From Bdellovibrionales bacterium (GTDB lineage Bacteria > Bdellovibrionota > Bdellovibrionia > Bdellovibrionales > UBA1609), in contig JAHDFM010000020.1 of assembly GCA_020628165.1 (NCBI GenBank), forward strand, positions 1 to 64,000: a stretch of DNA of 64,000 nucleotides, given 5' to 3'. Position 1 is the first letter of the stretch. Every line of letters begins with the position of its first letter. Shown one piece after another: positions 26,959-43,600 of the stretch. The translations under genes and the position numbers were made by a program. The notes below the pieces were generated by a model. It did no database searches. It was not told the origin of the DNA and was given only the letters and a program-made list of their open reading frames with translations.

Positions 26959-27551
26959 CCGTCCTCCTTTCCAAGCTTTATGATTTGGCTAGGAAGCTGA
27001 GCACTTAACAGACTGTCATGTGAGTTTAAAATGACAGACTTTTTATCGAACAAATGTTTTTTGATGATGCCATCTAAGTTTTTTTTGCTATCCTCATCAA
27101 GATGATTGTAAGGTTCATCGAGGATCAATAATTTATTTTCTTTAAGCACGGCCCTTGAAAGTAAGGCTTTTTGTCGCTCACCACCACTGGCGGTGTTCCA
27201 ACTAAGGTTCAAAGCCTCCTCAGTTAAAAACCCCAACGACAGAATCTCCTGGTCACTCACTGCCACTTTGGTATTGATCACTTCTCTCAGTGTGAATGGA
27301 AACAAAAACTGGAGATTTCCCATTTGTGGCAACAGAGAAACATCACTGAGTTGAATATTTAAATGGATTTCACCAGAGTAATATTGGTAACTGCCCACTA
27401 ACGCTTTTAGTAACGTCGATTTTCCTGAGCCATTGCAACCTTGCACATGGAGCAATTGACCTGGGTTTAGATCAAAGTGAAGATTTTTAAAAAGAACTCG
27501 ATGAGTGGGAGTCTTTAAAGTAAGGTCTTTGGCAGTAACAATCGAAGTCAT
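26952..27551 (-). CDS. znuC: Zinc ABC transporter ATP-binding protein (ZnuC-like, short)
   Basis: A 199-residue ABC ATPase: Walker A GCNGSGKSTLL, Q-loop LPQMG, signature TASGGERQKALLSRAVL, Walker B LLILDEPYNHLD and switch His in NSHDS. It is shorter than Escherichia coli ZnuC (about 250 residues) because it stops right after the nucleotide-binding domain. It sits four bases after the binding-protein gene and overlaps the permease gene. It supplies energy for zinc uptake. Confidence 0.82.
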   Translation of the reverse strand: MTSIVTAKDLTLKTPTHRVLFKNLHFDLNPGQLLHVQGCNGSGKSTLLKALVGSYQYYSGEIHLNIQLSDVSLLPQMGNLQFLFPFTLREVINTKVAVSDQEILSLGFLTEEALNLSWNTASGGERQKALLSRAVLKENKLLILDEPYNHLDEDSKKNLDGIIKKHLFDKKSVILNSHDSLLSAQLPSQIIKLGKEDGC

Positions 27552-27554
27552 AGG

Positions 27555-28475
27555 TTATAAATCTAAACTTTCTATGATGGCATCAGCAAGAACATGTTGC
27601 ACTTTACTGATGTTATCATACTTGGCTTTGTTTTTTTGCACCATCGTTGGCAATTTTTGGTAAGCAACTCCACTGATTTCAGAGAACTTTTTCAAATGTT
27701 TTTCGGGAGCGTAATAAGATCCCATCGCTAATTTCACGCCTTGTTTTTTAGCCTTCAACGAAACTTCGGCGATGCGTTTAGCTGATGGAGGAACACCTGG
27801 TAGTTTTTCAATTGCTTGAGTTGATTTTAAATTGTACTCATCAAAAAAGTAAGTGAACTCTTTGTGATATTCGATAACTATATTTTTTGTTTGTGAAAGG
27901 GTCGATGCCTTTTCTAGCTTCTGCTTGATCTCACTTTTTAAGGTCATCATTTTCTGACTGAACTTCTGTTGATTGGTTTTAAAAAAATTGGTCAGACTAG
28001 GGTCTTCATTGATCAGGTGAGCTAAGATCGTTTCTGACACTTTGATCAAAGATGTTGGGCTTAAGTTGTAGTGAGGGTTACCTGCCGGGTGCACATCTCC
28101 CATCGAGCGATCTACTTTGAAGTTGGGTTTTTCAAGCGCATTGATGCGACTGCCAGCAATGCAGTGACCTTGACCTCCCAGTTGCACTTTAGCATTGCCA
28201 GACTTTTCTAAGACTTTAGGAATCCAGCCTACTTCAAGATCTAAACCAATCATACAAACAATGTCGGCGCGAGCCACTTTTTTAATAAAGCTGGGAGTGG
28301 CATCTAAAAAGTGAGGGTCTTCAGTGCCTTCAAGCATAGAAGTCACCTTGACTTTATCACCACCAACACTCGCAACCACTTCGGCCAAGTCTGGCAAAGT
28401 GGTCACCACTTTGATCTTAGCAAATGAGACGTTTGAAAAAATAAACAGACTTATGAGAAGTAAAGATTTAATCAT
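27555..28475 (-). CDS. znuA: Zinc ABC transporter periplasmic binding protein (ZnuA-like)
   Basis: A cluster A-I (TroA/ZnuA-type) metal-binding protein. I chose the ATG at 28475, nine bases after AGGTG, in place of a GTG at 28487 that overlaps the ribosome-binding site. A signal peptide (LLLISLFIFSNVSFA) precedes KIKVVTTLPDLAEVV. Candidate metal ligands are His55 (EDPHF), His129/His135 (VHPAGNPH) and His204 (EYHKEF), with an acidic residue near the C-terminus. The His-rich loop of classical ZnuA is missing. A separate His-rich exported protein encoded in the same operon may take that role. Confidence 0.82.
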   Translation of the reverse strand: MIKSLLLISLFIFSNVSFAKIKVVTTLPDLAEVVASVGGDKVKVTSMLEGTEDPHFLDATPSFIKKVARADIVCMIGLDLEVGWIPKVLEKSGNAKVQLGGQGHCIAGSRINALEKPNFKVDRSMGDVHPAGNPHYNLSPTSLIKVSETILAHLINEDPSLTNFFKTNQQKFSQKMMTLKSEIKQKLEKASTLSQTKNIVIEYHKEFTYFFDEYNLKSTQAIEKLPGVPPSAKRIAEVSLKAKKQGVKLAMGSYYAPEKHLKKFSEISGVAYQKLPTMVQKNKAKYDNISKVQHVLADAIIESLDL

Positions 28476-28504
28476 CTTTATTAACACCTTTTATTAGATT
28501 GAAT

Positions 28505-29590
28505 TTAAAAGTCATGAGCCGGGTGCTCACCGAGTATTAAAACAAATTGCAGTTGTAGTTGACGATCTTTGACATCAGAAACACCTTCTAAAGTGTTCAC
28601 TTCGTGAGAGTAAGCTAAACGAACTTTGGCAAATTCACTGGATGTATAAGTCAAAGTAGGGACCACAGCATACGTGAGCTGATCTCTATCTTGCCAAACA
28701 GTATCAAACTTTCGATTTAAATGAGAGAACGCATCTAGCCGTAAACCATAGCTCCATTGAGGGTTATGACCATATTGGGTGTAGACATAAAAACCTGCTT
28801 CATAAACATTATTAACACCAGGAGTCTTCTCCGATTGATAGTAGGCCTCTGACTGCACCAACCAACGCAAAGTTTTACCCACTCTTTTTTTGTAAGTGAC
28901 ATCTAAACCAAGAAGTTCGGTTTTTGTTTCATTACCATCAATGCGGCCCAGGTAAGAGGCCCCTAGAAGCAATCCACTAGTTGTACCAAAAGAAAAGTAC
29001 GTCGTTGGGTGGATGTAGTGAACTGGATACTTAGGTCGCCCCACATCTTCGTGACAGTGACCATAACAATAACCGTTGGTGACACCCAATGTGATATCAA
29101 AGAAATGATCGGTTGGTAGCATCCATGTGTACTCTATGCCGGTGTCAGCAGCTCCTTCAGCTTCAATGCCACCACGGCCTGGGTTGAAAAACTCTCTGTG
29201 CACAACTGGAGCTGTTAAAAACGGCCAGTCGTGCTGATGAAACTGATTGAGTCGTCCGACGTTTAAAAAAAACTTACCCACTCGAAAGCGAGACTGCGGA
29301 ATGAGCTTTGATGATGAAACAAAGCCCTCATGAAGTTCAAAAACAAACTCTCCGTTTTCATCGTGACCAGCAATGTTTAAGTTGGCATCAAAGGTGGGGT
29401 CGAGCGGTCCGAAGAACATTACTTCTGCCGCGCGAACACGTAGTTTGTTGTCATCAGAAGAGTCAAGCGCTGTTAAATTAACTAAATCAACGGCCGCTGA
29501 AATTTTGATATCCTGAAACAAACTGACATCAGCAAATGCTTGTGAACAAAAAGTAGCAATAATAACAGATATAATAAAAAATGCTTTCAT
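28505..29590 (-). CDS. Outer-membrane barrel protein of the zinc locus
   Basis: About 361 residues from the ATG at 29590; the frame is open upstream but overlaps the preceding gene. A signal peptide (FFIISVIIATFCSQAFA) is followed by alternating beta strands through to LQLQFVLILG, consistent with a 16-strand-like barrel. A conserved patch, LNQFHQHDWPF, and a GYCYGHCHED loop are rich in His and Cys and could bind zinc at the surface. The first patch recalls outer-membrane proteins annotated as zinc-regulated receptors. No TonB box was found. It probably lets zinc or a zinc complex cross the outer membrane. Seven bases separate it from the preceding lipoprotein gene. Confidence 0.65.
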   Translation of the reverse strand: MKAFFIISVIIATFCSQAFADVSLFQDIKISAAVDLVNLTALDSSDDNKLRVRAAEVMFFGPLDPTFDANLNIAGHDENGEFVFELHEGFVSSSKLIPQSRFRVGKFFLNVGRLNQFHQHDWPFLTAPVVHREFFNPGRGGIEAEGAADTGIEYTWMLPTDHFFDITLGVTNGYCYGHCHEDVGRPKYPVHYIHPTTYFSFGTTSGLLLGASYLGRIDGNETKTELLGLDVTYKKRVGKTLRWLVQSEAYYQSEKTPGVNNVYEAGFYVYTQYGHNPQWSYGLRLDAFSHLNRKFDTVWQDRDQLTYAVVPTLTYTSSEFAKVRLAYSHEVNTLEGVSDVKDRQLQLQFVLILGEHPAHDF

Positions 29591-29597
29591 AATTGAA

Positions 29598-30239
29598 TCA
29601 ATGGTCGTCTTTTGGTGGACCTTTACTAACGGACAAGAGTTTACTATCTGAAACACGAATGCCCCAATCTTTACCGAACCCTCGTCCGCCAAGGGTTCCA
29701 TCTAGAATTGCATTATCAGAATCAACGAGATGATCCCAAGCAATAATATGAGCGCTTGCACCATGATTATTATGCACATCGAACATCAATGAAATTGACT
29801 GGTCAGCTTTTATACCTACAAAAAAGTCTGAAATATCTATTACATTGCCACTAGTTTCGATGGTCACTTGTAAATCTGATGTAGCTCCAACTCGCTTGAA
29901 TGTCATTTCAATACCTCTAGTTAGGTCTTGCCGAGAGTTTGCTATAAACACCAATTGTCCATCAGCCGCTAACTCAAAATTGAGAATATAATTGTTATTA
30001 GTTTCAATACCATCCAGAGTATCGGCAAAACGAAAGGAGCCCTCCCCTTCTATCGTATTATCTGGATTTAGTGTAAGACCAGATGGATCACCCACAGTTA
30101 AAATTCCATAACCACCTATTGAATGGTCGAATGAACTGCCAGCTGCAGCATCAGCGTCGGGATTATACCCACCACCGCAGGCGACAAGTGATCCTGCAAG
30201 AAATATTAATACCAATGACTTAAAATAATTATATCTCAT
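29598..30239 (-). CDS. Lipoprotein of the zinc locus
   Basis: A 213-residue lipoprotein: the ATG at 30239 follows AGAGG, and the lipobox LVACGGG is clear. The mature region is beta-rich, with Asp/Gly-containing strands (IEGEGSFRFAD, LVFIANSR, DISDFFVGIK) and His residues in NNHGASAHIIAWDH. No family recognised. It lies between the His-rich protein and barrel genes in the same operon, so it is likely a periplasmic or outer-membrane partner in zinc binding or transfer. Confidence 0.65.
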   Translation of the reverse strand: MRYNYFKSLVLIFLAGSLVACGGGYNPDADAAAGSSFDHSIGGYGILTVGDPSGLTLNPDNTIEGEGSFRFADTLDGIETNNNYILNFELAADGQLVFIANSRQDLTRGIEMTFKRVGATSDLQVTIETSGNVIDISDFFVGIKADQSISLMFDVHNNHGASAHIIAWDHLVDSDNAILDGTLGGRGFGKDWGIRVSDSKLLSVSKGPPKDDH

Positions 30240-30262
30240 CAATGCCTCTTATTTTTAAAAGA

Positions 30263-30958
30263 TTATTTAGGTTCCCCAGGAAGTCGACCACCTAACCTTT
30301 GATGGCAATCGATATGGTTACCATGATAGTGACATTCAAAAAGGGCCGATTCATTGATTCGAACTCCCATATAATTTAAAGGACCTAAAAGAAGTTGCCA
30401 AAGTTTTATAGTTTCAATATTGGGTAACGATTCTTCTTTAATTTTGTGCTCAAAAATGTAAGCAAGTGCTTGTTCCATTTCTTCAATTGTAAAAAGGTTT
30501 GATTTGTGCTGACCTTTTAAGAGGTTCTTACTATCTACATATTCACAATTTTCTTTATCAAGGTCACAAGAGTAATTGGACTTCACAAGAGATTTCCCTT
30601 CATTAGCTATATTATAAACACTTGCTGAGTCCGAATTTTTGTCTGTGTAAAACCCAACTATGTTTTCAGAACCATTGTTCTCTTCAGCGAACTGCTCCAT
30701 AGCTATGATTCCAGATAATGCCGCTGGGACGTGAGCAATTTCATCATGATCGTGATCATCGTCGTGTCCGTGATCATCATCATGCTCATTATCTCCGTGG
30801 TCCCCCTCGTGTCCATCATCGTGATCGTGCTCATGCTCGCCATCTTTGTGCTCATGTTCGTGTTCATGTCCATGCCCATCATCATGACCGTGGCCAGTGC
30901 CTGCAAAAGACACTCCTGTGAATAATATAAAAATTAACATTAGTAATGCTTTGATCAT
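30263..30958 (-). CDS. His/Asp-rich exported metal-binding protein
   Basis: The ATG at 30958 follows GAGAGGG and begins a signal peptide (ALLMLIFILFTGVSFA). Immediately after cleavage comes a low-complexity run of about 60 residues made of alternating His, Asp, Glu and Gly, which must bind zinc or similar metals with high capacity. A conserved C-terminal domain of about 150 residues follows, with Cys residues in YSCDLDKENCEY and a terminal LFECHYHGNHIDCHQR. Probably a periplasmic zinc scavenger or chaperone that feeds ZnuA. First gene of the seven-gene zinc operon, behind the putative Zur box. Confidence 0.8.
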   Translation of the reverse strand: MIKALLMLIFILFTGVSFAGTGHGHDDGHGHEHEHEHKDGEHEHDHDDGHEGDHGDNEHDDDHGHDDDHDHDEIAHVPAALSGIIAMEQFAEENNGSENIVGFYTDKNSDSASVYNIANEGKSLVKSNYSCDLDKENCEYVDSKNLLKGQHKSNLFTIEEMEQALAYIFEHKIKEESLPNIETIKLWQLLLGPLNYMGVRINESALFECHYHGNHIDCHQRLGGRLPGEPK

Positions 30959-31008
30959 GTTTAATTCCCTCTCGATTAAATAGTTAAATACCTTAAGAAA
31001 ACTATCAC

Positions 31009-31029
31009 TATTGCAAATCGTTCGCAATA
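31009..31029. promoter_or_regulatory. Putative Zur operator upstream of the zinc operon
   Basis: A 21-base palindrome with arms TATTGC (31009-31014) and GCAATA (31024-31029); eight of ten base pairs match around the centre at 31019. It lies about 50 bases upstream of the His-rich protein gene. On the minus strand a TTGCGA within it could be a -35 hexamer, with a weak TAGTTT 17 bases on. A Fur-family dimer bound here would block the promoter. Confidence 0.55.
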
Positions 31030-31242
31030 AGAATATGTTTTCGTAAACTTTATTTTGTAAATAAGATAATGAAAACAATAATTCAGGCACATATCTCTAA
31101 GGCATTAAAAGTACTTTTACTTTTTCAAAATAAAAAATCAGATTTTACTAAAAATACTATCCTTTTTAGAAGATGGTAGATACTTCAAAGACTCATTCTT
31201 AACTTGGATTTGTAAAATTATGGCTGTAATAATTAGCAGAAA

Positions 31243-32025
31243 ATGAGCAAACCTAGCCAAGCTACTTTAATTCACTATCCAACAAGTCCATTCCATCGAG
31301 TCCTGAACGCCATGAGATGGTCGCTCTATTTTTTAAATACGTTTTGGTTTTTTGCTGTTATACCAATTTTTTTAAGGTTCTCACTGGCTATGAGCTTTCA
31401 AAAAGTCTGGGGCCTTGCAAGGTTTTGGGCTTATTTGTCTCTCAAAATTTTTGGTATAAAAATCAACTTGATCAAAAAAAATTCAACAAAAATTAAACCG
31501 GATGGCCAATATATTTTTATTTCAAATCACCGTTCGTTTTTAGATCATTTTTTAATGCAAGTGAGTTTTAAAAACCCAACTCATTATGTGGCTAAAAAAG
31601 AATTTGCCAATTACAAGCTTCTCGATATGGGAGGCAAGGCTTATGAGTTTATACCAGCTGATAAAAATAAATTATCAGCTGAAAACAAAGAAAAAATGAA
31701 GGCGTACATCTTACGCAAAGAAAGTCTTGCCATATTTATTGAAGGCACACGCAACTCTAAAAAAAACTTACTACCGTTCAATCGCGGGGCTTTTCGTCTT
31801 TCGGCTAAATACAATATTCCCATTGTCCCCCTTTTCATTTATGGAACTCACGACAAAATGAGCAAGCACGACCATCTTTTAAACATTAAAACTGGTACAG
31901 CCACACTCATTGTCGATGAGCCTATCCAATTCGAAGCTGCGAACCTTGAACATCAGATTTCTGAATTTGAAATTGAATACCGAAAGAAGCACAGTGAAAA
32001 CATGATCAAATACGAAAACATCTAA
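31243..32025 (+). CDS. PlsC-type lysophospholipid acyltransferase
   Basis: A 260-residue membrane-associated acyltransferase. The catalytic NHxxxxD motif is N95-HRSFL-D101, and a second block reads IEGTRNSKKNLLPF, the substrate-binding 'EGTR' motif. N-terminal hydrophobic segments around residues 28-60 anchor it to the membrane. It most likely acylates lysophosphatidic acid or another lyso-lipid. It stands 183 bases before the lipid-type operon on the same strand and could belong to it functionally. A second homologue lies inside that operon at 36702-37433. Confidence 0.85.
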   Translation: MSKPSQATLIHYPTSPFHRVLNAMRWSLYFLNTFWFFAVIPIFLRFSLAMSFQKVWGLARFWAYLSLKIFGIKINLIKKNSTKIKPDGQYIFISNHRSFLDHFLMQVSFKNPTHYVAKKEFANYKLLDMGGKAYEFIPADKNKLSAENKEKMKAYILRKESLAIFIEGTRNSKKNLLPFNRGAFRLSAKYNIPIVPLFIYGTHDKMSKHDHLLNIKTGTATLIVDEPIQFEAANLEHQISEFEIEYRKKHSENMIKYENI

Positions 32026-32208
32026 TCTATCAAATCACTCACTTAAAAAAACCACCAGCCTCAAAACTGCCTGTAATTATTATAATAAGATTTTTGTTTT
32101 AAAAATGGGTTGATTCAGTAAAAATTTTACATCAAACCAACCATAAAATGCTTGTTTTCTATACATAATTAAGGGGCTAGAGTAATCTCATAAAAAGGAC
32201 ACAAACCA

Positions 32209-32718
32209 TTGTACGAACATTTTTTACTTCTTTATATTCCAATTATATTGTCTGTTGCCCTTCACATGTTGATCGTCAAGCATGACTTACTATCATGTCT
32301 AAAAACACCTATTAACGAGATCGCTTTTGGTAAAAACAAAACATGGAGAGGTTTACTCGTTGTTTCTACTCTCAACGCCTTATTTTATGTATCTCTGTCT
32401 CAATGGCTTGGTAAAACGCCACTGCTTACTCAAGCTTTTATCGGGGCCACCCTAGGCGCAACTTACATTATTTTTGAGCTGCCCAATTCCTTTTTAAAGC
32501 GACGTCTCAATATTGCCCCTGGCAGTCATAGTGAGACTCACAGAGCTCTTCATATGGTGCTAGATCGTTGTGATTCAACTTTAGGTGTGAGCTTAGTTTA
32601 TGTTTGTCTGATGAATTTAACATTTACACAGTGGTTTATTTTCTTTTTCATTGGTTTTCTTTTACACACCTCACTGAGTTTTCTATCTTACAACATAGGC
32701 TTGACTAAACAGTTATGA
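32209..32718 (+). CDS. CarS-like CDP-archaeol synthase family protein
   Basis: A 169-residue membrane protein with about five helices, starting at TTG behind AGGA. It shows the CarS (DUF46) motifs: GKNKTWRG, GATLGATYIIFELPNSF, KRRLNIAPG and LDRCDS. In archaea CarS transfers CMP from CTP to the phosphate of unsaturated archaetidic acid. Bacterial homologues presumably activate a related phospholipid or lipid phosphate. It opens a gapless operon and overlaps the phosphotransferase gene by four bases, which suggests activation of a lipid phosphate made there. Substrate unknown. No geranylgeranylglyceryl-phosphate synthase is in the window, so true archaeal lipids are unlikely. Confidence 0.75.
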   Translation: MYEHFLLLYIPIILSVALHMLIVKHDLLSCLKTPINEIAFGKNKTWRGLLVVSTLNALFYVSLSQWLGKTPLLTQAFIGATLGATYIIFELPNSFLKRRLNIAPGSHSETHRALHMVLDRCDSTLGVSLVYVCLMNLTFTQWFIFFFIGFLLHTSLSFLSYNIGLTKQL

Positions 32719-35141
32719 CGTACTCAGTACCACTCCATAAGAATCTACCAGCTGAGCTATTTGGCAATAAAGCAAACAGTTTGCATCGACTGATAAAGTG
32801 CAATGTCAACGTTCCTAATGGTTTTGCAATTGGCAAACAAGCATTGATTGATCACAACAACAATCAACTTTCAATTGATCAATTCCATACCGAATTAAAG
32901 CATCAATTAAAGCAACTCTCTTCAAAATATCTCATGGTACGTAGCTCTGCCATTGGAGAAGATGGTCAAGAAACTTCTTTTGCAGGTCAGCTTGATTCGT
33001 TCAAAGTAAATAACGAACTGTCTGCTGTTTTGAAAGGCTTGTACGACTGTTGGGAGTCGTTAGCTAATTCTCGACTGAAAACATATGAGCACCAATCCAA
33101 GACACCCATCACTGAAATGGGAGTTATTGTCCAAGAGATGATCGAACCTGAATATGCTGGTGTTTTGTTCACTTCTTCTCCCGCAGACAAAAACAAGACA
33201 TTGATTGAATACGTTTCAGGTCATGGAGAGTCATTGGTTCAAGGAGAAGTGACACCACAATCCATTCATTTCACAGACCTCGATGCACTGACAGATAAAT
33301 ACCCTTTTGATGTTCAAAAACTCTTAAGGGACTCAAACAAAATATTAAAAGCAAACAACAACCAAGCACAAGACATTGAGTGGGCTTTTAAAAATAAAAA
33401 ATTCTACTTTGTTCAATCTAGAGATATCACTGCAAATAATGAATTGCAAAACTGGTCCAACAGCAATCTTAACGAAAACTACCCTAATAAAATCACCCCA
33501 CTGCTTTACTCAATAGCTAAAGACTCCTACTTTCATTACTATAAAAATCTTGCTATCTCATTTGCCATTACAGCGAAGCACAGTTCTCATCTGACTCATT
33601 CTTTGCGCGGAACTGTAGGCCTGTGGGGTCAAAAAATCTATTACAACATCAGTGCCATTCACAATGTTATTGCTCAAACACCATTGCCAAAATTTTTGAG
33701 ATCTTCATTCAATGATTTCATAGGTTATCAAAAAAACATAAGTGGTCAGAGCGCTTCACAAAATACTTTTAGATCACTCAAGTTTTTTTACAAGCTGTTG
33801 TTTAACTATTTGTTCTTGGGTTTTAAAATAAAAAGGTTTGAAAAACGGGTTCAGTCTTTCGCTGACAACTATCATGACAAGTCCACTCTTCCACATTTAC
33901 ACAGAGGGTTTCACGAGTTCTTTGACATTCGTTTTTACAGCTGGCTTGGCCCCTCGTTAGCAGACACATATGCCATGTTATTTCATGGAAGCCTTGGTGC
34001 TGTCTTAAAAAATATTGAGTCTAAAAAGTATAAAGGCTTACAAAATAAACTTATCCAAGCAATCCCTGGTTTAATCAGCAACCAGCCTTTGAAAGATTTG
34101 TGGCAAATACACACTGAAATCAACGATAACATTCAAAACCAAAACCTCTTTGCACTGCCTCGCGGAGTTATTTATGAACAGCTGCAGAAAGATCAAAAAT
34201 ATCTACAACTGAACTCTCTTATAAGTCGTTATTTAACGAAGTGGGGGTATCGCTGTTCTGGTGAACTTAACTTTTTATCAGAAAATTATATCGAAAAGCC
34301 ACTGAGTTTGATCAAGCTGATAAAAAATTACAACAAAAGCAACCCTAATGACCCTAATCTCATTATAAAAGACAAATACAAAGAAAAAAGAGTCGTCTAC
34401 AGGCAAGTTCAAAAGACCGTTATAAAAAAGATGTGGTACAACCCCGTCAAAATTATTTTTAATTTGTTGATTTTAAATCTTGTGATGAACAAAACAGAAA
34501 GTGCCATTGCTTACCGTGAAAGAGCACGCCTAAAACAAGCTCAACTTTACTACGCTTTTAAAACCATTTGTCAAAAAATTGAAGATCAGCTCATTGCTAA
34601 AAACGTTCTACAACAAAAAAAAGATCTCTTCTTTTTGAATCACCAAGAAATCACTCGACTTCTCTCAGGGGAAGAAATCAGTTCTACTGATCTGCAAAAA
34701 ATCATACAAGACAGAAAAAAACAATTTGAACAAGCTAAAGACTACCCAAATGACTTCAAAACTCGACAATTTGATTTTACACCAAAAGTAATCACAGAAA
34801 AAGGTAATAACTCGAGCTCTGACAATACACTCACCGGACTTCCTGCTTGTGGAGGAGACGTCACTGGAAGAATTGTAATCTTAGAGACAGTCCATGAAAT
34901 ATCTAAACTTAAAGAGGGAGATATTTTAGTGACCAAACAAACAGATCCTGGTTGGATATGTGCATTCCCTCTGATTTCTGGTTTGATTGTTGAAAATGGA
35001 GGCATGCTCTCACACGGAGCTATTGTAGCCAGAGAATTTGGCATTCCTGCTGTTGTCGGTGTCACAGATGCGACTCAGATTCTCAAAGATCAACAAAAAG
35101 TGCGTGTAGATGGTGATTTAGGGGAAGTGGTATGCCTTTAA
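32715..35141 (+). CDS. PEP-synthase-like phosphotransferase (ATP-grasp plus swivelling His domain)
   Basis: An 808-residue protein. Residues about 5-240 are the pyruvate-phosphate-dikinase-type ATP-grasp domain (GNKANSLHRL, YLMVRSSAIGEDG, GVLFTSSPA, FVQSRDI). Residues about 715-805 are the swivelling phosphohistidine domain with NGGMLSHGAIVAREFGIPAV, catalytic His767. The C-terminal PEP-binding TIM barrel of PpsA is absent; a Lys-rich, mostly helical middle region of about 470 residues takes its place. This layout matches rifampicin-phosphotransferase-type enzymes, which use ATP to phosphorylate an alcohol. In this operon a lipid or prenyl alcohol is a plausible acceptor (inference). Confidence 0.8.
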   Translation: MTYSVPLHKNLPAELFGNKANSLHRLIKCNVNVPNGFAIGKQALIDHNNNQLSIDQFHTELKHQLKQLSSKYLMVRSSAIGEDGQETSFAGQLDSFKVNNELSAVLKGLYDCWESLANSRLKTYEHQSKTPITEMGVIVQEMIEPEYAGVLFTSSPADKNKTLIEYVSGHGESLVQGEVTPQSIHFTDLDALTDKYPFDVQKLLRDSNKILKANNNQAQDIEWAFKNKKFYFVQSRDITANNELQNWSNSNLNENYPNKITPLLYSIAKDSYFHYYKNLAISFAITAKHSSHLTHSLRGTVGLWGQKIYYNISAIHNVIAQTPLPKFLRSSFNDFIGYQKNISGQSASQNTFRSLKFFYKLLFNYLFLGFKIKRFEKRVQSFADNYHDKSTLPHLHRGFHEFFDIRFYSWLGPSLADTYAMLFHGSLGAVLKNIESKKYKGLQNKLIQAIPGLISNQPLKDLWQIHTEINDNIQNQNLFALPRGVIYEQLQKDQKYLQLNSLISRYLTKWGYRCSGELNFLSENYIEKPLSLIKLIKNYNKSNPNDPNLIIKDKYKEKRVVYRQVQKTVIKKMWYNPVKIIFNLLILNLVMNKTESAIAYRERARLKQAQLYYAFKTICQKIEDQLIAKNVLQQKKDLFFLNHQEITRLLSGEEISSTDLQKIIQDRKKQFEQAKDYPNDFKTRQFDFTPKVITEKGNNSSSDNTLTGLPACGGDVTGRIVILETVHEISKLKEGDILVTKQTDPGWICAFPLISGLIVENGGMLSHGAIVAREFGIPAVVGVTDATQILKDQQKVRVDGDLGEVVCL

Positions 35142-35764
35142 TGAATGAACTCATTTCCTATACCAAACAACGCTTTGCCATTTGGCCATGGTTTGTTTTG
35201 AGTTTTTATTTTTTATTGCTCAGCTCTGTAAGCCTTGAGGGCTTAAACTTAACCTTGTATATTTTCACCCTCCTTTTTTTATTTTCATTTCGATTGCTCG
35301 ATGATCTTATGTGTCGGCAAAATGACCTTCACAATTTACGAAAAAGCCCTTTTCAATTTAAGAACATTCCCATTATGTTCACCTTCAGTTGTCTTGCCTT
35401 TGCTGTAAGTTGTGTTTCCATTTATTGGTTCACGCAAAGCTGGAGGCTTGCCTTTATCCTATTGAACCTTTACACATTTTCTATACTTCTTTATTGGGTA
35501 TTAAAAAATAGTTCTTTGATCAACCTTATTTCAATCCTTAAATACCCTGTTCTCATTTATATTTTAGGCGAAGTGAACTTGAATGAATTCAATTTTATTT
35601 TATCAATGATTGTTTTTTCGTTATTTTTATTTTTTGAAGTTTTAGAAGAATACTTTTTTAAAATTTATAAAAAGAGTTTTTACATACTACTTTTAAGTTT
35701 ATTGGTACTCAACTTTCAGCAAGGAGCGTTGCTATTAATATTGAAAAAATGTACGCACAACTAA
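35132..35764 (+). CDS. UbiA-like membrane protein, degenerate or short
   Basis: A 210-residue protein with about six membrane helices. The segment FRLLDDLMCRQNDLHNLRKS lies after the second helix. It resembles the first Asp-rich motif of a bacterial UbiA prenyltransferase subgroup ('R.fDE.KD...D...rP'), but several catalytic positions are changed and the second Asp motif of a full UbiA (about 290 residues) is not evident. It may be a shortened relative with altered chemistry. It overlaps both neighbours, by 10 and 16 bases. UbiA membership is a suggestion. Confidence 0.55.
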   Translation: MPLMNELISYTKQRFAIWPWFVLSFYFLLLSSVSLEGLNLTLYIFTLLFLFSFRLLDDLMCRQNDLHNLRKSPFQFKNIPIMFTFSCLAFAVSCVSIYWFTQSWRLAFILLNLYTFSILLYWVLKNSSLINLISILKYPVLIYILGEVNLNEFNFILSMIVFSLFLFFEVLEEYFFKIYKKSFYILLLSLLVLNFQQGALLLILKKCTHN

Positions 35765-36702
35765 ACAACCCCAAACACTATAAGTTTGAAACTGTGAGCT
35801 GCTATAACTGTGGTTCAACTAAAACCTCTCACTTTCTTGTTGGTGAAGAGGATCTCACCGGAAAAGAGGGCTATTTTAATTTTGAAAAGTGTAGTGACTG
35901 CGGCTTGGTTTATCAAAACCCTCGAGTTCACATGGACCAAATTAAAGATTTTTATGACAATGAATACATTGCCCACAGAAAAAAGAAAAACTGGGGATTG
36001 CTAACCCCTCTTTACAATCGAGCTATGAATAAACATGATCGCTCTAAAGATAGTATTGTTTCAAAATATGTAGATTTAAACGAAAAAAGCCAAGTGCTCG
36101 ATGTTGGCTGTGCTGTTGGTACTTTTTTACTGCACTTACATAAAAAGTATGGGTCACACATCAGTGGAGTTGACTTTAAAAGTGACCTTTCATTCCCCAA
36201 CTTTGACAAAATCGATTTTCATTGTGGTCTTTTTTATGAGCAAAACTTACCGAAAAATAATTTTGACCTCATAACAATGTGGCACTTTCTTGAACATTGT
36301 TATGACCCTGTAAAAACCTTAAACAAATCAGCAGAGCTGATCAGTGACTCCGGCAAAGTTATCATTGAAGTGCCGCGATTGGACTCAGTGACTTATAAGA
36401 TGTTCAAAGACAAGTGGCCAGGAGTGCAGGCTCCTCAGCACACAGTGATGTTTGACAAAAAGTCGTTGTTTGAAATGATTGAAAAATCAGGGCTGAAAGT
36501 TGTTGATTACCTTCCATATGGAGCTTTCCCGTCCTACTTTTATATTTTTACTGGTATTTACTTCAAAATATTTGGCAAAGGACTGAATTTAGAAAACACA
36601 GTGATCCCTTATTTCTTAGGTCAACTTTTACTTAGCCCTGTTTTACTTTTTGAAAAAAAGCTCAACCTATCTATGCAAACTGTGGTTTGTGAGAAAGCTT
36701 GA
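35749..36702 (+). CDS. Class I SAM-dependent methyltransferase with N-terminal zinc ribbon
   Basis: A 317-residue protein. Residues 18-51 carry two CxxC pairs (C18/C21 and C48/C51), a zinc-ribbon-like module common in methyltransferases of surface-glycan and natural-product loci. The Rossmann methyltransferase follows, with SAM motif I VLDVGCAVGTFLLHL and post-motif FDLITMWHFLEHCYDP. A hydrophobic C-terminal part (YFLGQLLLSPVLLF) suggests membrane association. It probably methylates the lipid intermediate of this operon. It overlaps the UbiA-like gene by 16 bases, and its stop shares one base with the next start. Confidence 0.8.
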   Translation: MYAQLNNPKHYKFETVSCYNCGSTKTSHFLVGEEDLTGKEGYFNFEKCSDCGLVYQNPRVHMDQIKDFYDNEYIAHRKKKNWGLLTPLYNRAMNKHDRSKDSIVSKYVDLNEKSQVLDVGCAVGTFLLHLHKKYGSHISGVDFKSDLSFPNFDKIDFHCGLFYEQNLPKNNFDLITMWHFLEHCYDPVKTLNKSAELISDSGKVIIEVPRLDSVTYKMFKDKWPGVQAPQHTVMFDKKSLFEMIEKSGLKVVDYLPYGAFPSYFYIFTGIYFKIFGKGLNLENTVIPYFLGQLLLSPVLLFEKKLNLSMQTVVCEKA

Positions 36703-37433
36703 TGAAGCATGCGTTGATGATTTATCGCTGTTTGGTCATGTACACAGGCATGACTCTTATTGGTTGTGTGGCCAGCACCCTCTATCTTTTGTCATTGGGG
36801 CGATTACGTCGCTTTAACTTTGAAGTTTTAGCTCCACCTTTTTTTCGGATTATGCTCTATTTAATGGGCATAAAATTAACAGTCAAAAATACAAAAAATG
36901 ACTCTCGTCCTGGTTTATACTTTTTCAATCACAATTCTTATTTAGACCTGATCATTCTACCAGCCCTAGGCTTGATGAACACTCGCCTCATCACTTCAAC
37001 TCGCACAAAAAAGTATCTACCGTTGAGGCTCTGTCATTTTGGATTTGGCTCATTGTATCTCCCCTACAAAGATCAGAAAAAAGAGCGCCTACAAGCTTTT
37101 AAAAACATAGCTCAACGTATGGTCGAGGAAAAATTCAGTGTGATTTGTTCGCCTGAAGGAGTTCACACCTTTCGTCATAAAATTAGTCCTTTCAACAAAG
37201 GGGTTTTTCACCTAGCAACAGTGACTGAATTCCCAATCTACCCACTTTTTATCCATATTCCAAAAAAATCAAATCCTCTTGAAGGTTTTTACTACCAGTC
37301 TGGTAACGTATTTGTGACTCATATGAACACAATAGATACTGATTCATGGTGCCTTGAGACATTGAGTAATAATAAAAAAAACGTGCGCAACTTATATATT
37401 GAGACCTATGAGGAGCAAACAGCCAATGCTTAA
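36702..37433 (+). CDS. PlsC-type acyltransferase within the lipid operon
   Basis: A 243-residue membrane-bound 1-acylglycerol-phosphate acyltransferase-like enzyme. The NHxxxxD motif is in FFNHNSYLDL (His77, Asp82), and the second motif SPEGVHTFRHK replaces the usual PEGTR with PEGVH. N-terminal hydrophobic segments anchor it. The ATG at 36702 sits in TGATG with the previous stop; a TTG one codon earlier is less likely. Its altered PEGVH motif may reflect an unusual acyl acceptor. It should add an acyl chain to the operon's product. Confidence 0.82.
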   Translation: MKHALMIYRCLVMYTGMTLIGCVASTLYLLSLGRLRRFNFEVLAPPFFRIMLYLMGIKLTVKNTKNDSRPGLYFFNHNSYLDLIILPALGLMNTRLITSTRTKKYLPLRLCHFGFGSLYLPYKDQKKERLQAFKNIAQRMVEEKFSVICSPEGVHTFRHKISPFNKGVFHLATVTEFPIYPLFIHIPKKSNPLEGFYYQSGNVFVTHMNTIDTDSWCLETLSNNKKNVRNLYIETYEEQTANA

Positions 37434-37872
37434 AACCACTCTGATTGCTCTCACCAATTTAAACCGATCCATCAAAAAAGATCTGATGACAGCAGCAACA
37501 GAGAGCTCTTTTATTGTGCTGCCTTGGCACCTCGACCTGAACGGTCATGTCAATAACGCCACTTATTTAAACTTTGCTAACAAAGCACGTATTGAGTTTC
37601 TTGCTAAGCATGGCCTACTCAAAATTTTGATTAAAAATAAGGTTCAGTCTGTAATTTACAAGAATGAAGTTTTATATAAAAAACCTCTGAATCTGTTCGA
37701 CACCTTTCAAGTCACAACAACTTTAGTGAGTTTACAAAAAAATGAAGTGTTGATTAAGCACCAGTTTAGCAAAAAAAACATTGCTGTGGCCACCTGTGAA
37801 AGTCATTGCAAACTTTTAAGCTCAAATAATAATATACAGATAGATAGTCTTGTTGGAATTTTAAAACAATGA
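37426..37872 (+). CDS. Hotdog-fold acyl-CoA thioesterase (4HBT-like)
   Basis: A thioesterase-like protein of about 148 residues. The signature is FIVLPWHLDLNGHVNNATYL followed by ARIEFL, in which the Asp and the HVNN region match the 4-hydroxybenzoyl-CoA thioesterase/THEM6 group. I chose the ATG at 37426 because AGGAG lies ten bases upstream; TTG 37399 and ATG 37408 are alternatives. It overlaps the acyltransferase gene by eight bases and the desaturase gene by four. It may release a specific fatty acid for the GH3-type synthetase encoded two genes later (inference). Confidence 0.75.
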   Translation: MLKTTLIALTNLNRSIKKDLMTAATESSFIVLPWHLDLNGHVNNATYLNFANKARIEFLAKHGLLKILIKNKVQSVIYKNEVLYKKPLNLFDTFQVTTTLVSLQKNEVLIKHQFSKKNIAVATCESHCKLLSSNNNIQIDSLVGILKQ

Positions 37873-38771
37873 AAAAAAGTAATCTAACTGCGCTTATTCA
37901 TTTAACCACTCCGGTCACTTTTTTAGGTGTCTATCTTTTCACATACAGCTTGGGAGGTTTGTACTACTTTGCAAGCCAAATTAGTTTAGCACTTTTCTTG
38001 TGCCAATGTTTTATTTTACTTCATGAATTTGGCCACGACTCCTTTTTTAAAACACCAGTGCTCAATAAGTTTTTTGGCTACATTGTGTCTTTGTTGGTGT
38101 TCATTCCATTCTATAACTGGGAAAAAGTACATAGTCTCCATCACAAGTGGACCGGCTGGAGAGACATTGACCCCACTACAGAAAACACCAGAGCTCATTT
38201 ATACAGTTCTCAACAACAGAATATCATCAATTTTTGCTGGAACTACTTTATCCCCTTATTCACCTTAGGCTACCGCTTTGGTATTTATTGGCATCGACAA
38301 AAGTTACAAAAACACCTGAGCCCAAAGCAATTTAAAAAAGCTCAAGTTCATATTTTTGTGTACGCACTCTTTTACTTATCTATTTTGATCTTTTTTTATG
38401 ATTTCATATTGCTGAACCTTGTTGGTCTTTTGCTTAGCTTTGCATTCACTGACATTATCACTTTAAGCCAACACGCCCACATAGAAATGAACAGCGGCAA
38501 CACTGGCCTCGAAAAACCCCTCAAACCCATTCAACAAGCGAAGTTGTCACGAAGCCTAGTTTTTCCAAAATTTTTCGCTCAGTATTTTCTGTTAAATATC
38601 AACTTACATGAAGCTCACCACCAATACCCCGGAGTTCCCTGTTACCACCTAGCAAGCATGAAATCTGTGAGTTCAAACAGTTATCCATTTCTACCTTGGT
38701 TAAAAACAGTTAAAAAAATGAAAGGATTTGATTTTATTTTTAAATCATCTGCAACAAGAGACAACTTTTAA
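37869..38771 (+). CDS. Membrane fatty acid desaturase/hydroxylase-like di-iron enzyme
   Basis: A 300-residue integral membrane protein with all three His boxes of the PF00487-type family: H52-EFG-H56-D, H88-SL-H91-H92 and H247-EA-H250-H251, plus an extra QHAH at 201-204. The third box HEAHHQYPG and the loop after box two (KWTGWRDIDP) resemble bacterial acyl-lipid desaturases and carotenoid hydroxylase/ketolase relatives. It should introduce a double bond or hydroxyl into the acyl chain of the product. Its start overlaps the thioesterase stop (ATGA). Whether it desaturates or hydroxylates cannot be told from sequence alone. Confidence 0.82.
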   Translation: MKKSNLTALIHLTTPVTFLGVYLFTYSLGGLYYFASQISLALFLCQCFILLHEFGHDSFFKTPVLNKFFGYIVSLLVFIPFYNWEKVHSLHHKWTGWRDIDPTTENTRAHLYSSQQQNIINFCWNYFIPLFTLGYRFGIYWHRQKLQKHLSPKQFKKAQVHIFVYALFYLSILIFFYDFILLNLVGLLLSFAFTDIITLSQHAHIEMNSGNTGLEKPLKPIQQAKLSRSLVFPKFFAQYFLLNINLHEAHHQYPGVPCYHLASMKSVSSNSYPFLPWLKTVKKMKGFDFIFKSSATRDNF

Positions 38772-38782
38772 AAGGTGATATT

Positions 38783-40327
38783 ATGAATTTTCTAAGAACT
38801 GGAGTTAACAAAGCCTTTTCTAAATACACGCGCCATCATATAAAAAAAACTCGCACACAGCCCATCGAATGCCAAGACCATGTCTTTAAGAACATATTAA
38901 AACAAAGTCAAAAAAGCTTATTTGGTAGCAACCATTTAAAAAATGTTAGAACCATCTCTGAGTATCAACAAGCCTTAAAAGCCAACTCCTATGAAGACTA
39001 CAATGAGTACATGAACAAAATCATGCTTGGTGAAAACAATATTCTCTGGCCCGGCAAACCTAAAATAATTACAGTTTCATCAGGCACTACCAGTGGTCGT
39101 AAGTATATCCCCATTTACAAACCCTTATTGAATTCCCACTATTCAACCAGCCTCCTCTCTGGTTTTAATTACAGCCTAGAGACTGGTGATTTTGATATTC
39201 TTGATGGCAGTTTATTTTACCTCACTGGCTTACAGAATTTTTCCATCAAAGGAGGGGTGCCATACGGCCACCTTGGAGCGCTGGCTCGCAATAAATTTCC
39301 TAAATTTTTATTGCCAGGAATGTACCCTCCAAAAAATTTAAAACACCAAGACAACTGGGACGACAAGGTCCAAAAAATAATTGAGCACATTGTTGACCAT
39401 CCGATCACTTTGTTTGCTGGCACTCCACCCTGGCAAGTGGACTTTCTACAAAAATTTAAAGATGTTCACGGCAAAAAGTTTGGCGATCAGTTCAAAGACT
39501 TTAAACTTTTTATACACAGTGGTTGTTCTTTTGATCCATACCGCCAAAGTGTTTTTGATCTCATTGGAGACACCCCTGGTTACGCCACCATGGAAAACTT
39601 ACCTGCATCGGAAGCCTTCATTGCCTTTCAAGATACTTGGGGAAGCAACAAAAAAGAACCTCGCGACATGTTGTTGAACCTTAACTCTAACATTTTCTTT
39701 GAATTCATTCCTGTGGAAAACAACCAGCTTGTTAACGACAAAAGGTTAACTGTTAGAGATTTAGAAGTGGGCCAGGAATACGCTTTACTTATAAGTGTGT
39801 TGGGTGGTTTTTTAAGCTACCATCTTGGTGACAATGTTATTGTTACTAATTTAAACCCTGTACGCATTAAATTTAGTGGGCGCTCTCGTTTCAATGTCAA
39901 TTACATTGGCGAGCATATGGATTACCAAACTATTTTAAAAGTTTTTTTGCAGCTTAAAGAAGACTTTAAAATTGAAGATTTCTCTTTACTGCCAAGCTAC
40001 GTGCAAGGTTTAAAAAAAAATGTGCAGTACCACTGGTACTTCACAACATCTGATAAAACTTTACCTCACCAAATTCAGCAGGTTGAACAAAAGCTTCGTA
40101 CACTTTGTGTTGAGGCCAATGCTTTTTATAAGGCCATCGACAACTCAAGACTTTTACTCCCCCCTAAAGTGCATTTCATTCAACCGGGCTCATTGCGTGG
40201 TTTTATAAAAAATAAATCATCTGTCGGACAGAACAAAGTGATCAATGTCCTGCAAAAAGAAGATCAGCAAATAGAATTCAAACAGTATTTGAAAACCAAT
40301 GATTTTCACTTAATGTCATCGATTTAG
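38783..40327 (+). CDS. GH3-family acyl-adenylating amide/ester synthetase
   Basis: A 514-residue member of the GH3 (auxin-responsive promoter) branch of adenylate-forming enzymes. The ATP/AMP-binding motif SSGTTSGRKYIP spans residues 99-110. YATMENLPASEAFIAF and YHLGDNVIVTN match later GH3 motifs. Plant GH3 enzymes join amino acids to carboxylic-acid hormones; bacterial homologues are largely uncharacterised but often sit in lipid loci. Here it could activate a fatty acid, perhaps the thioesterase product, and transfer it to an amine or alcohol. AAGGTG precedes the start. Last gene of the operon. Confidence 0.85.
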   Translation: MNFLRTGVNKAFSKYTRHHIKKTRTQPIECQDHVFKNILKQSQKSLFGSNHLKNVRTISEYQQALKANSYEDYNEYMNKIMLGENNILWPGKPKIITVSSGTTSGRKYIPIYKPLLNSHYSTSLLSGFNYSLETGDFDILDGSLFYLTGLQNFSIKGGVPYGHLGALARNKFPKFLLPGMYPPKNLKHQDNWDDKVQKIIEHIVDHPITLFAGTPPWQVDFLQKFKDVHGKKFGDQFKDFKLFIHSGCSFDPYRQSVFDLIGDTPGYATMENLPASEAFIAFQDTWGSNKKEPRDMLLNLNSNIFFEFIPVENNQLVNDKRLTVRDLEVGQEYALLISVLGGFLSYHLGDNVIVTNLNPVRIKFSGRSRFNVNYIGEHMDYQTILKVFLQLKEDFKIEDFSLLPSYVQGLKKNVQYHWYFTTSDKTLPHQIQQVEQKLRTLCVEANAFYKAIDNSRLLLPPKVHFIQPGSLRGFIKNKSSVGQNKVINVLQKEDQQIEFKQYLKTNDFHLMSSI

Positions 40328-40624: not shown

Positions 40625-43600
40625 ATGATATCCAAATATTTATCTCAACCAACTGTATCCAAAAATAACATTGCATTTATTTCTGAAGATGACCTTTGGC
40701 TCGTCGAAAAAGATGGCGGCAATGCCACTCGTCTTACCAACACAACGGGTGTTTGCTCTCAACCCATGTTTTCACCTGACGGCACTAAGATTGCTTACTC
40801 TAGCCTCGATGAGGGTCACAAAGAAGTCTTTATCCTTGATTTAAGTAATTTTGAAACAGAGCGCCTCACTTACTTAGCAAGCAACACCTATGTGACTCAT
40901 TGGGTTTCAAATGAAAAGTTGATCATTAACACCATAGCTTACAACCCACATATGTGTGGTGAAATGTTTAAGATTTCTGTCACAGGTGGACAGCCTGAGC
41001 CTTTCAACTTAGGCCCATGCACTCACTTCAGCCAAAACGAACAAGGGCAAGTTGTGATCGAAAGAAACTCTCGTCGTGCCGACCTTTCCTGGTGGAAACG
41101 CTATCGCGGTGGAACAGCTGGTAAACTATGGACCTCGACGTCTTTAACCGGCGAATACCAACAAATCCTTAAAGACCTCGACAGTAACTTTTCAAGACCC
41201 TTGTTCATTGGAGATAAAATCTATTTCTTATCTGATCACGAAAACATTGCAAATATTTATAGTTGCAATATCAATGGCAGCCAGATTGAAAGAGTTACTA
41301 ACTTTGAAGTTTACTACTGCCGCAACTTACAGAGCAATGGCCAAGAGTTGTGTTTTCAAAACGGGGCTCAACTCTACACAGTCAACCTTTCAGACAATAC
41401 AGTTAAAAAACTAGAGGTGACATTTACCAATAGCACGGCAAAAACCCATCGCAAGCTTGTGCCTGCCGATGAGCGTTTTACATATCACTCTGTCCATCCA
41501 AACGGAGAGCACATTGCGATGACCTCACGCGGTCATAATCTATATAGAGGGGTTTGGGACGGACCAACCCAACAAATCCCGCAAGATCCAACCACTCGTT
41601 CACTACATGTTGACTGGGCTAAGAATAACTTGATCCGCACCCGAGACCTTGGCACTAAATATATATTTGAACTCTATAACTATGAAACTGAAACCGTTGA
41701 GACAACCTTTGATCAATTTGATTTTGGTCGTATTATAAATATCAAAGCAGCCCCTAGTGGTAAATACGTGGCCTTCACCAATCACCGCAATGAAATAGGC
41801 ATTCTCAACTTAACAAATTCTGAAACTACAATCATTGATCAAGCCAAAAGTACTTTTATCAAGTACATGAATTGGTCTCCTGATAGTAAGTTCCTAGCTT
41901 ACGAAGCCTCTCATAAGGTTGGAGACTACAATTTTCAAATCTTAGTTCATAGTTTATCAGAGAAAAAAACTTACCCAGTGACCAATAATGAGTTTAAAAA
42001 CTTCTCACCGAGCTTTAGCCCTGATGGAAAGTATTTATGGTTCATCTCTAATTGTTTTCTGAACCCTTACTACGACAATGTTAACTTTGATATGTCTTTC
42101 AGAAAAACATCTAAAATTTGTGGCGTCACTTTAGCAAAAGAAACTTTGTCACCACTTTTTAAATCACCAAAATTTGAAGCAGCTGACCCATCAAAAAATG
42201 AAACAAAAAACAAAGACCAAGAAGTGACGGTTGCTATCGATTTTGAAAACATTCAGCACAGAGTATTTAGTTTACCAGTGCCTGAGTTTTCCGGTGTGAA
42301 ACTAGAAGCCACTGAAAAAAAGGTTTACTGGCAAAGTTACAATGATGACGGAGCACTCAATATGAGCTGGGACATGCAGCAAACAGACAAATGCTCTCTC
42401 AACGCATTTACATTTGAAGACCAAAAAACAGAGACATACCCTGAACAGGTCGGAAACTTCAATTTGTATGGCAAAAGCATAAGTTTAATGCAAAAAAAGC
42501 AGCTTCGAATTCTTTCTTGTGAAAGCAAGTTAGAGATTCCAAAAGAAAAAGGTTTTAATAAAGCAAGCGGTCTTGTCGATTTGAAGAAGTCAAAAGTGAT
42601 GATTCAACCAAAACAAGAGTGGAAACAGATGTTCTTTGAAATGTGGAACTTACAGAAAGACTACTTTTGGCGCTCTGACATGTCACAGATCAATTGGTCC
42701 AATGTGCTAGAGATGTATTCGCCACTTCTTGAAAAGATCAACACACGCAGTGAATTCAGTGACCTATGTTGGGAAGTGCAAGGAGAGCTTGGCACGTCAC
42801 ACGCTTACGAATCTGGTGGAGATTATGAGCCGACAAAATCTTTTCATCTTGGCTTATTTGGATGTGACCTAAAGTTTAATGAAAAGCAAGGTGGGTATGA
42901 AATCACCAACATCATCAAAGCCGACACCTGGAACGAGAAAGAGTGCTCACCACTTATGGCTCCGGGTTTAAACATTTCTGAAGGTGATTTTATCACCAAG
43001 GTCAACAACACATCTGTCTCTGCCACTCAAACTCCCACTCGTTTAACTCTTGCTTCTGGAATTGATTTTTGCAACCTGACTGTTAAAGATAAAAACAGTA
43101 AAAAAGAACGAACAGTTATAGTTAAGCCTTATGCCACTGAGGTGAGCTCTAGGTATCGTGAATGGGTGAATAAAAACCGAGAGTACGTGCATGCTAAGTC
43201 TGGTGGCAAAGTTGGCTATGTTCACATTCCAAACATGGTGGGACAGGGCTTTTCAGAGTTTCATAGACTCTTCATACCCGACGTCAACAAAGAAGCCCTC
43301 GTTGTTGACGTACGTTACAATCGTGGCGGGCATGTTTCACCACTATTAATTGAAAAACTCGCTCGCACAAAGCACGGTGTTTGTGAATCAAGATGGTTTG
43401 GTACAACCAGTGTTCCCGCTGAAACACCAAAAGGTCCATTAGTTTGTATCACCAATGAATTTGCTGGGTCTGACGGAGATATTTTCAGTCACACTTTTAA
43501 GCTTAAAAACTTAGGTCCGTTGATCGGCAAAAGAACTTGGGGTGGCGTAATTGGTATCTACCCAAGAAACACTCTAGTAGATGGTGGCATGACCACTCAA

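Follow-up and report, generated by a model that had tools for sequence, protein, structure and literature searches.

What does the run of tightly packed genes at positions 31243 to 40327 of a 64,000-nucleotide stretch of contig JAHDFM010000020.1 make? The stretch (hereafter the window, at its full length) comes from a 3.19-Mb genome (G000) of the Bdellovibrionota, and its nine genes in this region lie on the + strand, all of their open reading frames (ORFs) having been verified at the coordinates given here. An original prediction, made from the window alone, had read eight of these genes, with a PlsC-type gene just upstream, as a coherent lipid-biosynthesis operon. We find that the gene set is a real conserved unit, with conservation far beyond chance. 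Its proteins are likely to make a CDP-activated lipid, and we tentatively propose that, by the full route set out below, they may assemble a nonstandard membrane phospholipid alongside the normal one.

The eight genes from 32209 to 40327 are chained by overlaps of 4 to 16 bp, bar one gap of 11 bp, so that the description of same-strand genes that overlap or nearly touch is borne out by the ORFs. With the stop codon counted, the CarS-like gene (32209 to 32718) overlaps the phosphoenolpyruvate (PEP) synthase-like gene (PPS; 32715 to 35141) by 4 bp, PPS overlaps the UbiA-like gene (35132 to 35764) by 10 bp, the UbiA-like gene overlaps the methyltransferase gene (MT; 35749 to 36702) by 16 bp, and MT overlaps the operon PlsC gene (36699 to 37433) by 4 bp. 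The thioesterase ORF is open from a TTG at 37399, which would give an overlap of 35 bp with PlsC; the likelier ATG start at 37426 (37426 to 37872) gives ~8 bp. The thioesterase gene in turn overlaps the desaturase gene (37869 to 38771) by 4 bp, and the GH3 gene (38783 to 40327) follows after the 11-bp gap. Pfam and NCBIfam searches back every family call except that of the UbiA-like protein, and the profile searches agree with the earlier calls of methyltransferase, 4HBT, FA_desaturase, GH3, and PlsC families.

Is the set kept together elsewhere? Genomes of 84,980 species, one for each, were scanned with a three-sequence PPS alignment, which returned 80 loci; 30 of these, with the window, make up what we call type I (31 loci). 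Alongside PPS, these loci carry UbiA (28 of 31), MT (27), CarS (25), desaturase (24), and PlsC (24), and several of the loci that miss a gene end at a contig edge. Type I genes share a strand, with rare exceptions, and mostly keep the order CarS-PPS-UbiA-MT-PlsC-(thioesterase)-desaturase. Hosts belong to six phyla—Bdellovibrionota, Bacteroidota, Planctomycetota, Acidobacteriota, Gammaproteobacteria, and Myxococcota—and the gene-neighborhood search thus upholds the earlier view of a coherent operon and shows it to be conserved. A check independent of PPS, with an MT profile on 369 Bdellovibrionota genomes, gave 10 positive genomes and two new loci, both of which carry CarS, PPS, UbiA, and desaturase (bringing type I to 33).

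The distribution is patchy, with the operon present in two of four sampled members of the genus, the window genome included. In the PPS tree, type I forms one clade (support 100/99), within which a planctomycetotal copy (L060) falls inside Bdellovibrionota and a Pseudobdellovibrio copy (L043) inside Bacteroidota. CarS, UbiA, and MT of these two loci share the same foreign nearest relatives as PPS, and pairwise distances among operon proteins correlate (0.51 to 0.87). This concordance suggests that the operon has been transferred as a unit.

A well-supported assignment is that of the CarS-like protein, a predicted CTP:lipid-phosphate cytidylyltransferase. It scores 22.1 bits on PF01864 (cut-off, 22), a family matched by 22 of 25 orthologues, and 39 bits on the NCBIfam equivalog PRK04032, below the cut-off of 148. 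The motifs FGxNKT...ELPNSxxKR...PG...DxxDS, which include the cytidylyltransferase signature (SxxKR...PG...DxxDS), are kept in 25 copies. An AlphaFold 2 (AF2) model (mean predicted local distance difference test score [pLDDT], 94.5) has the five-helix CarS fold, with a single clear Foldseek match, the archaeal CarS 5guf (probability, 1.00; template-modeling [TM] scores, 0.64/0.68; E = 0.027). Motif, family, and fold thus agree with the earlier call of a CarS-type enzyme, of which substrate and CTP use are predicted. CarS and CdsA enzymes act on dialkyl or diacyl glycerol phosphates (PMC9385802). Because some copies carry a dedicated PssA-like gene, the more likely substrate of CarS is a lipid phosphate that has already been assembled.

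PPS comprises an ATP-grasp domain, a substrate domain, and a C-terminal phospho-His domain (PPDK_N and PEP-utilizers matches). It has no PEP barrel, as first described. Aligned to rifampin phosphotransferase (RPH; 5fbs/5hv2), which is the closest solved relative, its R76, R601, E602, and R605 correspond to RPH R117, R666, E667, and K670. The catalytic His is H767, and all five residues are at least 90% conserved across the 31 type I copies. The best NCBIfam scores are to generic PEP synthase models (371 bits), and the rifamycin phosphotransferase model gives 251 bits, under its cut-off of 999. PPS would thus be an ATP-dependent dikinase related in architecture to the rifampin enzyme and not itself one. 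Since most copies own a separate alcohol kinase (APH or phytol-kinase-like), PPS may be available to carry out either a further phosphorylation or a ligase step.

The short UbiA-like membrane protein (210 amino acids [aa]) is recognized through its relatives. It has no Pfam match of its own, and 3 of 28 orthologues match PF01040 (best, 2.3e-6). The motif RLxDDLxxxxxD, which contains the first Asp-rich motif (DDLxxxxxD), is invariant. Aligned by hhalign with the longer UbiA proteins of the sister clusters described below, the family gives 94.9% probability, limited to the first 80 residues. The profile of these longer proteins has DGGGP synthase 6m31 as its best PDB match (9.2e-6), followed by chlorophyll synthase; DGGGP synthase is the ether-forming archaeal enzyme, and its Asp-rich motifs have been described (PMC9385802). 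The AF2 model of the window protein (pLDDT, 88.6) has ~8 to 9 helices, some of them short, compared to nine in the UbiA fold, and its PDB matches, all with E values of at least 0.4, are weak ones to isoprenoid synthases and to a membrane PRTase. The original assignment therefore stands as a distant relation, through orthologues and profile alignment; a UbiA-like identity is plausible, not proven.

Most other type I copies carry, in addition, a module of acyl-thioester reductase and alcohol kinase that is absent from the window copy. In Bdellovibrionota and Bacteroidota, the module is a ~775-aa fusion of HMG-CoA reductase (HMGR) and APH, directly upstream of CarS. Planctomycetota, Gammaproteobacteria, and Acidobacteriota have instead, on the downstream side of PlsC, a fatty acyl-AMP ligase (FAAL), an acyl carrier protein (ACP), and a thioester reductase (TR), again with this APH domain. 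The APH active-site motifs HND and DWE are intact. Five copies also have a PssA-like CDP-alcohol phosphatidyltransferase, which shares the strand of the operon in four of them and is encoded opposite to it in L057. The best hint to the functions of these parts comes from locus L061, which lacks HMGR-APH and CarS and has in their place HMGR, CdsA (PF01148, 102 bits), and a phytol/dolichol-kinase-like protein, that is, nonhomologous or distant enzymes of known activity. From these exchanges, we infer that the reductase converts an acyl thioester to an alcohol, that APH is an alcohol kinase, and that CarS provides CTP-dependent activation of a lipid phosphate.

We considered whether the cluster HMGR supplies isoprenoids. 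IspG, of the methylerythritol phosphate (MEP) pathway, is present in 13 of 22 genomes with a cluster HMGR, where this enzyme is thus not needed for ordinary isoprenoids, and the supply role was rejected for at least these 13 genomes. A search for HMG-CoA synthase gave no match even in genomes without IspG and is hence uninformative. The catalytic E, K, D, and H of the cluster HMGR are kept and its HMG-binding Ser is replaced; the same replacement occurs in a stand-alone HMGR, so active-site residues are not decisive for the substrate. In the window genome, a search for IspG found none, and the sole HMGR lies within an ordinary set of mevalonate-pathway genes (contig C36, 7.1 to 12.1 kb; L124 5125 to 10150) with IDI-2, the class II HMGR, and three GHMP-type kinase/decarboxylase genes.

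Among the remaining operon proteins, MT, a S-adenosylmethionine (SAM) methyltransferase with an N-terminal zinc ribbon (PF13489, 72.6 bits), is the most conserved protein of the set (52 to 70% identity between phyla), and its four Cys (C18, C21, C48, and C51) and SAM motif are kept. In a genus mate (L036 4434 to 4459; G111, contig C80), the MT gene is cut by an in-frame TGA, with the remainder intact, which reflects either a sequencing error or a pseudogene. The desaturase/hydroxylase-family membrane protein (PF00487, 95.5 bits) keeps its three His boxes across copies (HEFGH, HSLHH, and HEAHH in the window), and the hotdog thioesterase (4HBT/YbgC-like, by family match) is restricted to some Bdellovibrionota copies. 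The operon PlsC (Pfam, 44 bits) has the motifs NHNSYLD and PEGVH, the latter in place of PEGTR, as originally noted. HX4D is kept in every copy examined, and EGVH occurs in many Bdellovibrionota and Bacteroidota copies, with EGTR or EGxR elsewhere. By this sequence comparison PEGVH is a subclade trait, and with HX4D intact there is no ground for a changed reaction; that interpretation was dropped.

The remaining PPS loci of the same scan include two further cluster types. Type II, in Desulfobulbus, Geobacteraceae, Verrucomicrobiota, Planctomycetota, Melainabacteria, and Cyanobacteria, combines HMGR or a radical SAM protein with UbiA, PPS, a DUF3419 protein, mostly a phytol-kinase-like protein, a GNAT protein, and an AMP-ligase. 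Examples within L065 to L109 include L080 (5155 to 14977), L085, and L095; in the cyanobacterial loci, HMGR gives way to a radical SAM protein plus two unknown ones. We take DUF3419 to be the BtaA family, which transfers betaine-lipid head groups. The phytol-kinase-like protein (L080 13649 to 14977, and relatives) is a membrane protein of ~443 aa with no Pfam match and with phytol/dolichol-kinase motifs recognized by eye; one member matches DUF92, and a short form of 239 aa is found in L061 (17059 to 17778). Type III, in Undibacterium, Massilia, and Endobugula, comprises a PigE-like protein, PPS, CarS, PssA-like, PSD, a second PPS, and UbiA. Loci of this kind are L110 (1927 to 16668), L111, L113, and L082, with two PPS genes in each, an archaetidylserine-synthase-like PssA, and a PigE-like aminotransferase. 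For the PssA-like genes of sister clusters, the highest scores are those on models of archaetidylserine synthase, though they do not reach cut-off. Type II clusters, too, are apparently undescribed. Because PPS and UbiA recur as a pair with three different head-group modules, the comparison suggests that these two proteins make the hydrophobic core.

Taken together, the proposed route would run as follows. An acyl thioester would be reduced to a long-chain alcohol by the HMGR-like domain or by FAAL-ACP-TR, and the alcohol would be phosphorylated by the APH or phytol-kinase-like kinase; for the window operon, both steps would be supplied from elsewhere. PPS would add the next phosphate via phospho-His767, or the first one where no kinase exists. 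The UbiA-like protein would then move the activated chain to an acceptor of the glycerol-phosphate type, forming an ether; PlsC would add an acyl chain; and CarS would make the CDP-lipid. A CDP-alcohol transferase would finally add the head group, a dedicated PssA-like one in Planctomycetota and Gammaproteobacteria and a housekeeping one elsewhere. MT and the desaturase would tailor the product, to which GH3, where present, may add an amino acid amide. Ether formation by UbiA through this route is possible, with considerable doubt, and is proposed mainly because of the parallel with archaeal assembly, in which a UbiA enzyme, CarS, a serine-head transferase, and a decarboxylase act (PMC9385802). 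A broader reading, which we consider doubtful, is that a modular ether-lipid route exists in many phyla. Acyl chains would be converted to alcohols, phosphorylated twice (kinase plus RPH-type dikinase), and attached by UbiA, and distinct modules for the head group (CarS, alone or with PssA; CarS-PssA-PSD; or a BtaA-like homoserine transferase) would complete phospholipids or lipids of the betaine type, in an independent parallel to the archaeal logic of UbiA, CarS, and archaetidylserine.

Several points weigh against this route. Every substrate is inferred, as are the ether bond and the sequence of reactions. The window copy lacks the reductase-kinase gene (no HMGR-APH was found in its genome) and must obtain the first two steps elsewhere in the cell, and some copies lack CarS or PlsC (L050, L059, and L061). 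The window UbiA-like protein is short and has no family match of its own, its last Asp-rich motif is replaced by a FEVLEE-type sequence, and its model has no PDB match in Foldseek at E ≤ 0.001. UbiA enzymes normally take allylic diphosphates, so that a saturated chain would be unusual, and HMG-CoA reductase is normally specific for HMG-CoA, which leaves the use of a fatty acyl thioester putative.

The original prediction had instead ordered the steps as alcohol phosphorylation, CDP activation, and head-group assembly. On such an order, PPS would phosphorylate a free alcohol, CarS would yield a CDP-alcohol, and the UbiA-like protein would transfer head group or alcohol to a lipid, with no ether formed. 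This order suits the window, which has no other alcohol kinase nearby and whose genome has no HMGR-APH, and RPH-type enzymes do phosphorylate free hydroxyls (PMC4844700). However, it overlooks the separate alcohol kinase, already fused to the reductase in most other copies, as well as the PssA-like gene in some. The known CarS/CdsA substrates noted above, together with the use of CdsA in L061, argue against it, and PlsC and the PssA-like genes of sister clusters fit a glycerophospholipid. We therefore consider this order unlikely, while the lipid operon that it described is retained.

PPS might alternatively be a PigC-type ligase that joins a reductase-made aldehyde to a nucleophile, giving, for example, a vinyl ether or small natural product, in which case the operon would make a secondary metabolite or a plasmalogen-like lipid. 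The scores of PPS on the PigC and RedH models are 222 and 219 bits, both under cut-off; the first gene of type III in Undibacterium and Endobugula is PigE-like (321 bits; cut-off, 850); and TR and acyl-ACP-reductase-like domains can yield aldehydes. However, the fusion of reductase and alcohol kinase in type I fits alcohols better than aldehydes, type I has no PigE-like gene, and PPS scores highest on generic PEP synthase, with rifampin phosphotransferases as its nearest solved relatives. This makes a ligase role quite improbable.

A third possibility centers on GH3, an acyl-adenylating enzyme (PF03321, GH3_M/GH3_C) that would couple an amino acid such as ornithine to a fatty acid, after which PlsC would add a second acyl chain and the other proteins would modify the product. 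GH3 is related to OlsH, the characterized lyso-ornithine lipid synthetase in Singulisphaera (PMC12493201), the operon PlsC gives weak OlsA-like scores, and a GH3 again adjoins the operon in L141. However, the score on the OlsH model NF052613 is 221 bits, well short of the cut-off of 620, and among the 33 type I loci GH3 is next to the operon in just two, the window and L141, where it has 34% identity and lies convergent on the opposite strand. An amide route would also need no CarS, PPS, or UbiA. An amino-lipid operon is thus very unlikely, GH3 as the key to the operon was ruled out as lying outside the conserved set, and its earlier inclusion as a core member is not upheld; on this distribution it is best seen as accessory. 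Separately, a second GH3 of the window genome (contig C4, ~181 to 188 kb; L119 6276 to 12464) lies with a cytochrome P450, a hexapeptide acyltransferase, a Rieske oxygenase, and a desaturase, possibly a second acyl-amide or oxidized-lipid cluster, and the same P450 and hexapeptide families adjoin PPS in Bacteriovorax (L050).

Finally, salvage of an isoprenoid or quinone, as for plant phytol, with no membrane phospholipid as product, would match the sequence of phytol-kinase-like protein, second kinase, and UbiA seen in tocopherol salvage and the chlorophyll synthase match of the cluster UbiA, but it is very improbable given that PlsC, CarS, PssA-like, PSD, and BtaA-like partners indicate complete lipids with head groups and that the Planctomycetota/Gammaproteobacteria branch of type I has fatty-acid-type loading by FAAL-ACP-TR.

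The phospholipid route would be an addition to the host's own lipid synthesis. A CdsA and two CDP-alcohol transferases are already encoded in the window genome, so the operon CarS is additional and the operon adds to normal lipid synthesis and does not replace it. The PlsC-type acyltransferase gene just upstream (31243 to 32025, +; Pfam Acyltransferase, 80 bits; canonical motifs NHRSFLD and FIEGTR), which had been counted with the set, is separated from CarS by 183 bp and is not tightly coupled to the operon; its protein had no match in eight relatives at 1e-20, in a search that lacked a positive control. By this comparison it is probably a neighbor outside the conserved core. Further upstream and divergent (26952 to 31090, −) are genes encoding an ABC ATPase of the metal type, a binding protein similar to ZnuA, and a secreted protein rich in His and Asp (HDHDDGH runs), assigned by eye as probably a zinc-uptake locus. 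Downstream (40625 to 43816, +) lies a gene for a 1,063-aa, tricorn-like protein of WD/PDZ/protease appearance, with a relative (36%) in one of eight genomes checked; this flanking gene offers no anchor for an empty-site comparison in genus mates. Promoter matches in the window are no more numerous than in shuffled sequence, while terminator-like sites outnumber those in shuffles.

If the proposed route is true, bacteria would have a further way to unusual membrane lipids beside the PlsA-type, Ger-type, and archaeal-like ones, spread by transfer over at least six phyla. RPH-type dikinases, long regarded as antibiotic resistance enzymes, would gain a role in lipid synthesis. The pathway could also help account for lipidome constituents that lack known genes, and it would bring to the question of the lipid divide a bacterial route that uses enzymes of archaeal type. 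Since public records include culturable carriers (Aestuariivivens sediminis and A. insulae and, among the sister types, Desulfobulbus rhabdoformis and Undibacterium pigrum), these ideas are directly testable.

No published pathway of such composition was found in the open-licence literature, in agreement with the original prediction, and, as far as could be checked, the pathway is undescribed and assembled from known kinds of enzyme. Among the nearest relatives is the archaeal ether phospholipid branch of UbiA-type DGGGP synthase, CarS, archaetidylserine synthase, and archaetidylserine decarboxylase (PMC9385802), with which the operon shares a UbiA-superfamily protein and a CarS-fold enzyme and the sister clusters share PssA-like and PSD genes side by side. 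The operon differs in its reductase-kinase-dikinase front end, its bacterial PlsC, desaturase, and methyltransferase, and its short, divergent UbiA; GGGP synthase and glycerol-1-phosphate dehydrogenase are not among the recurrent cluster genes, and no whole-genome search for them was made. “Candidatus Cloacimonetes,” proposed as bacteria with archaeal lipids, present the reverse, having GGGPS and DGGGPS and lacking CarS (PMC7852524), whereas the operon has CarS and no GGGPS among its recurrent genes. PlsA and Ger, the glycerol ester reductases of bacterial ether-lipid synthesis, reduce existing esters (PMC13274423); the product class would be the same if the ether reading is right, and no PlsA or Ger gene is among the recurrent genes of the operon. 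The OlsH/OlsI ornithine lipid pathway of Planctomycetes (PMC12493201) shares a GH3 acyl-adenylating enzyme of the OlsH group, but the operon GH3 scores under the OlsH cut-off and lies outside the core, and the operon has no alpha/beta-hydrolase OlsI. Compared to RPH dikinases, PPS has the same domain order, with a C-terminal swiveling His and the equivalents of R117, R666, E667, and K670, yet it has low identity in the substrate domain and belongs to a lipid operon found across many phyla. In plant phytol salvage, VTE5 and VTE6 carry out two successive alcohol phosphorylations, followed by a UbiA enzyme. The operon shares the proposed logic of two phosphorylations and then UbiA, and sister clusters have a VTE5/DUF92-like protein, but its second kinase is a dikinase of another superfamily and its acceptor is probably not aromatic.

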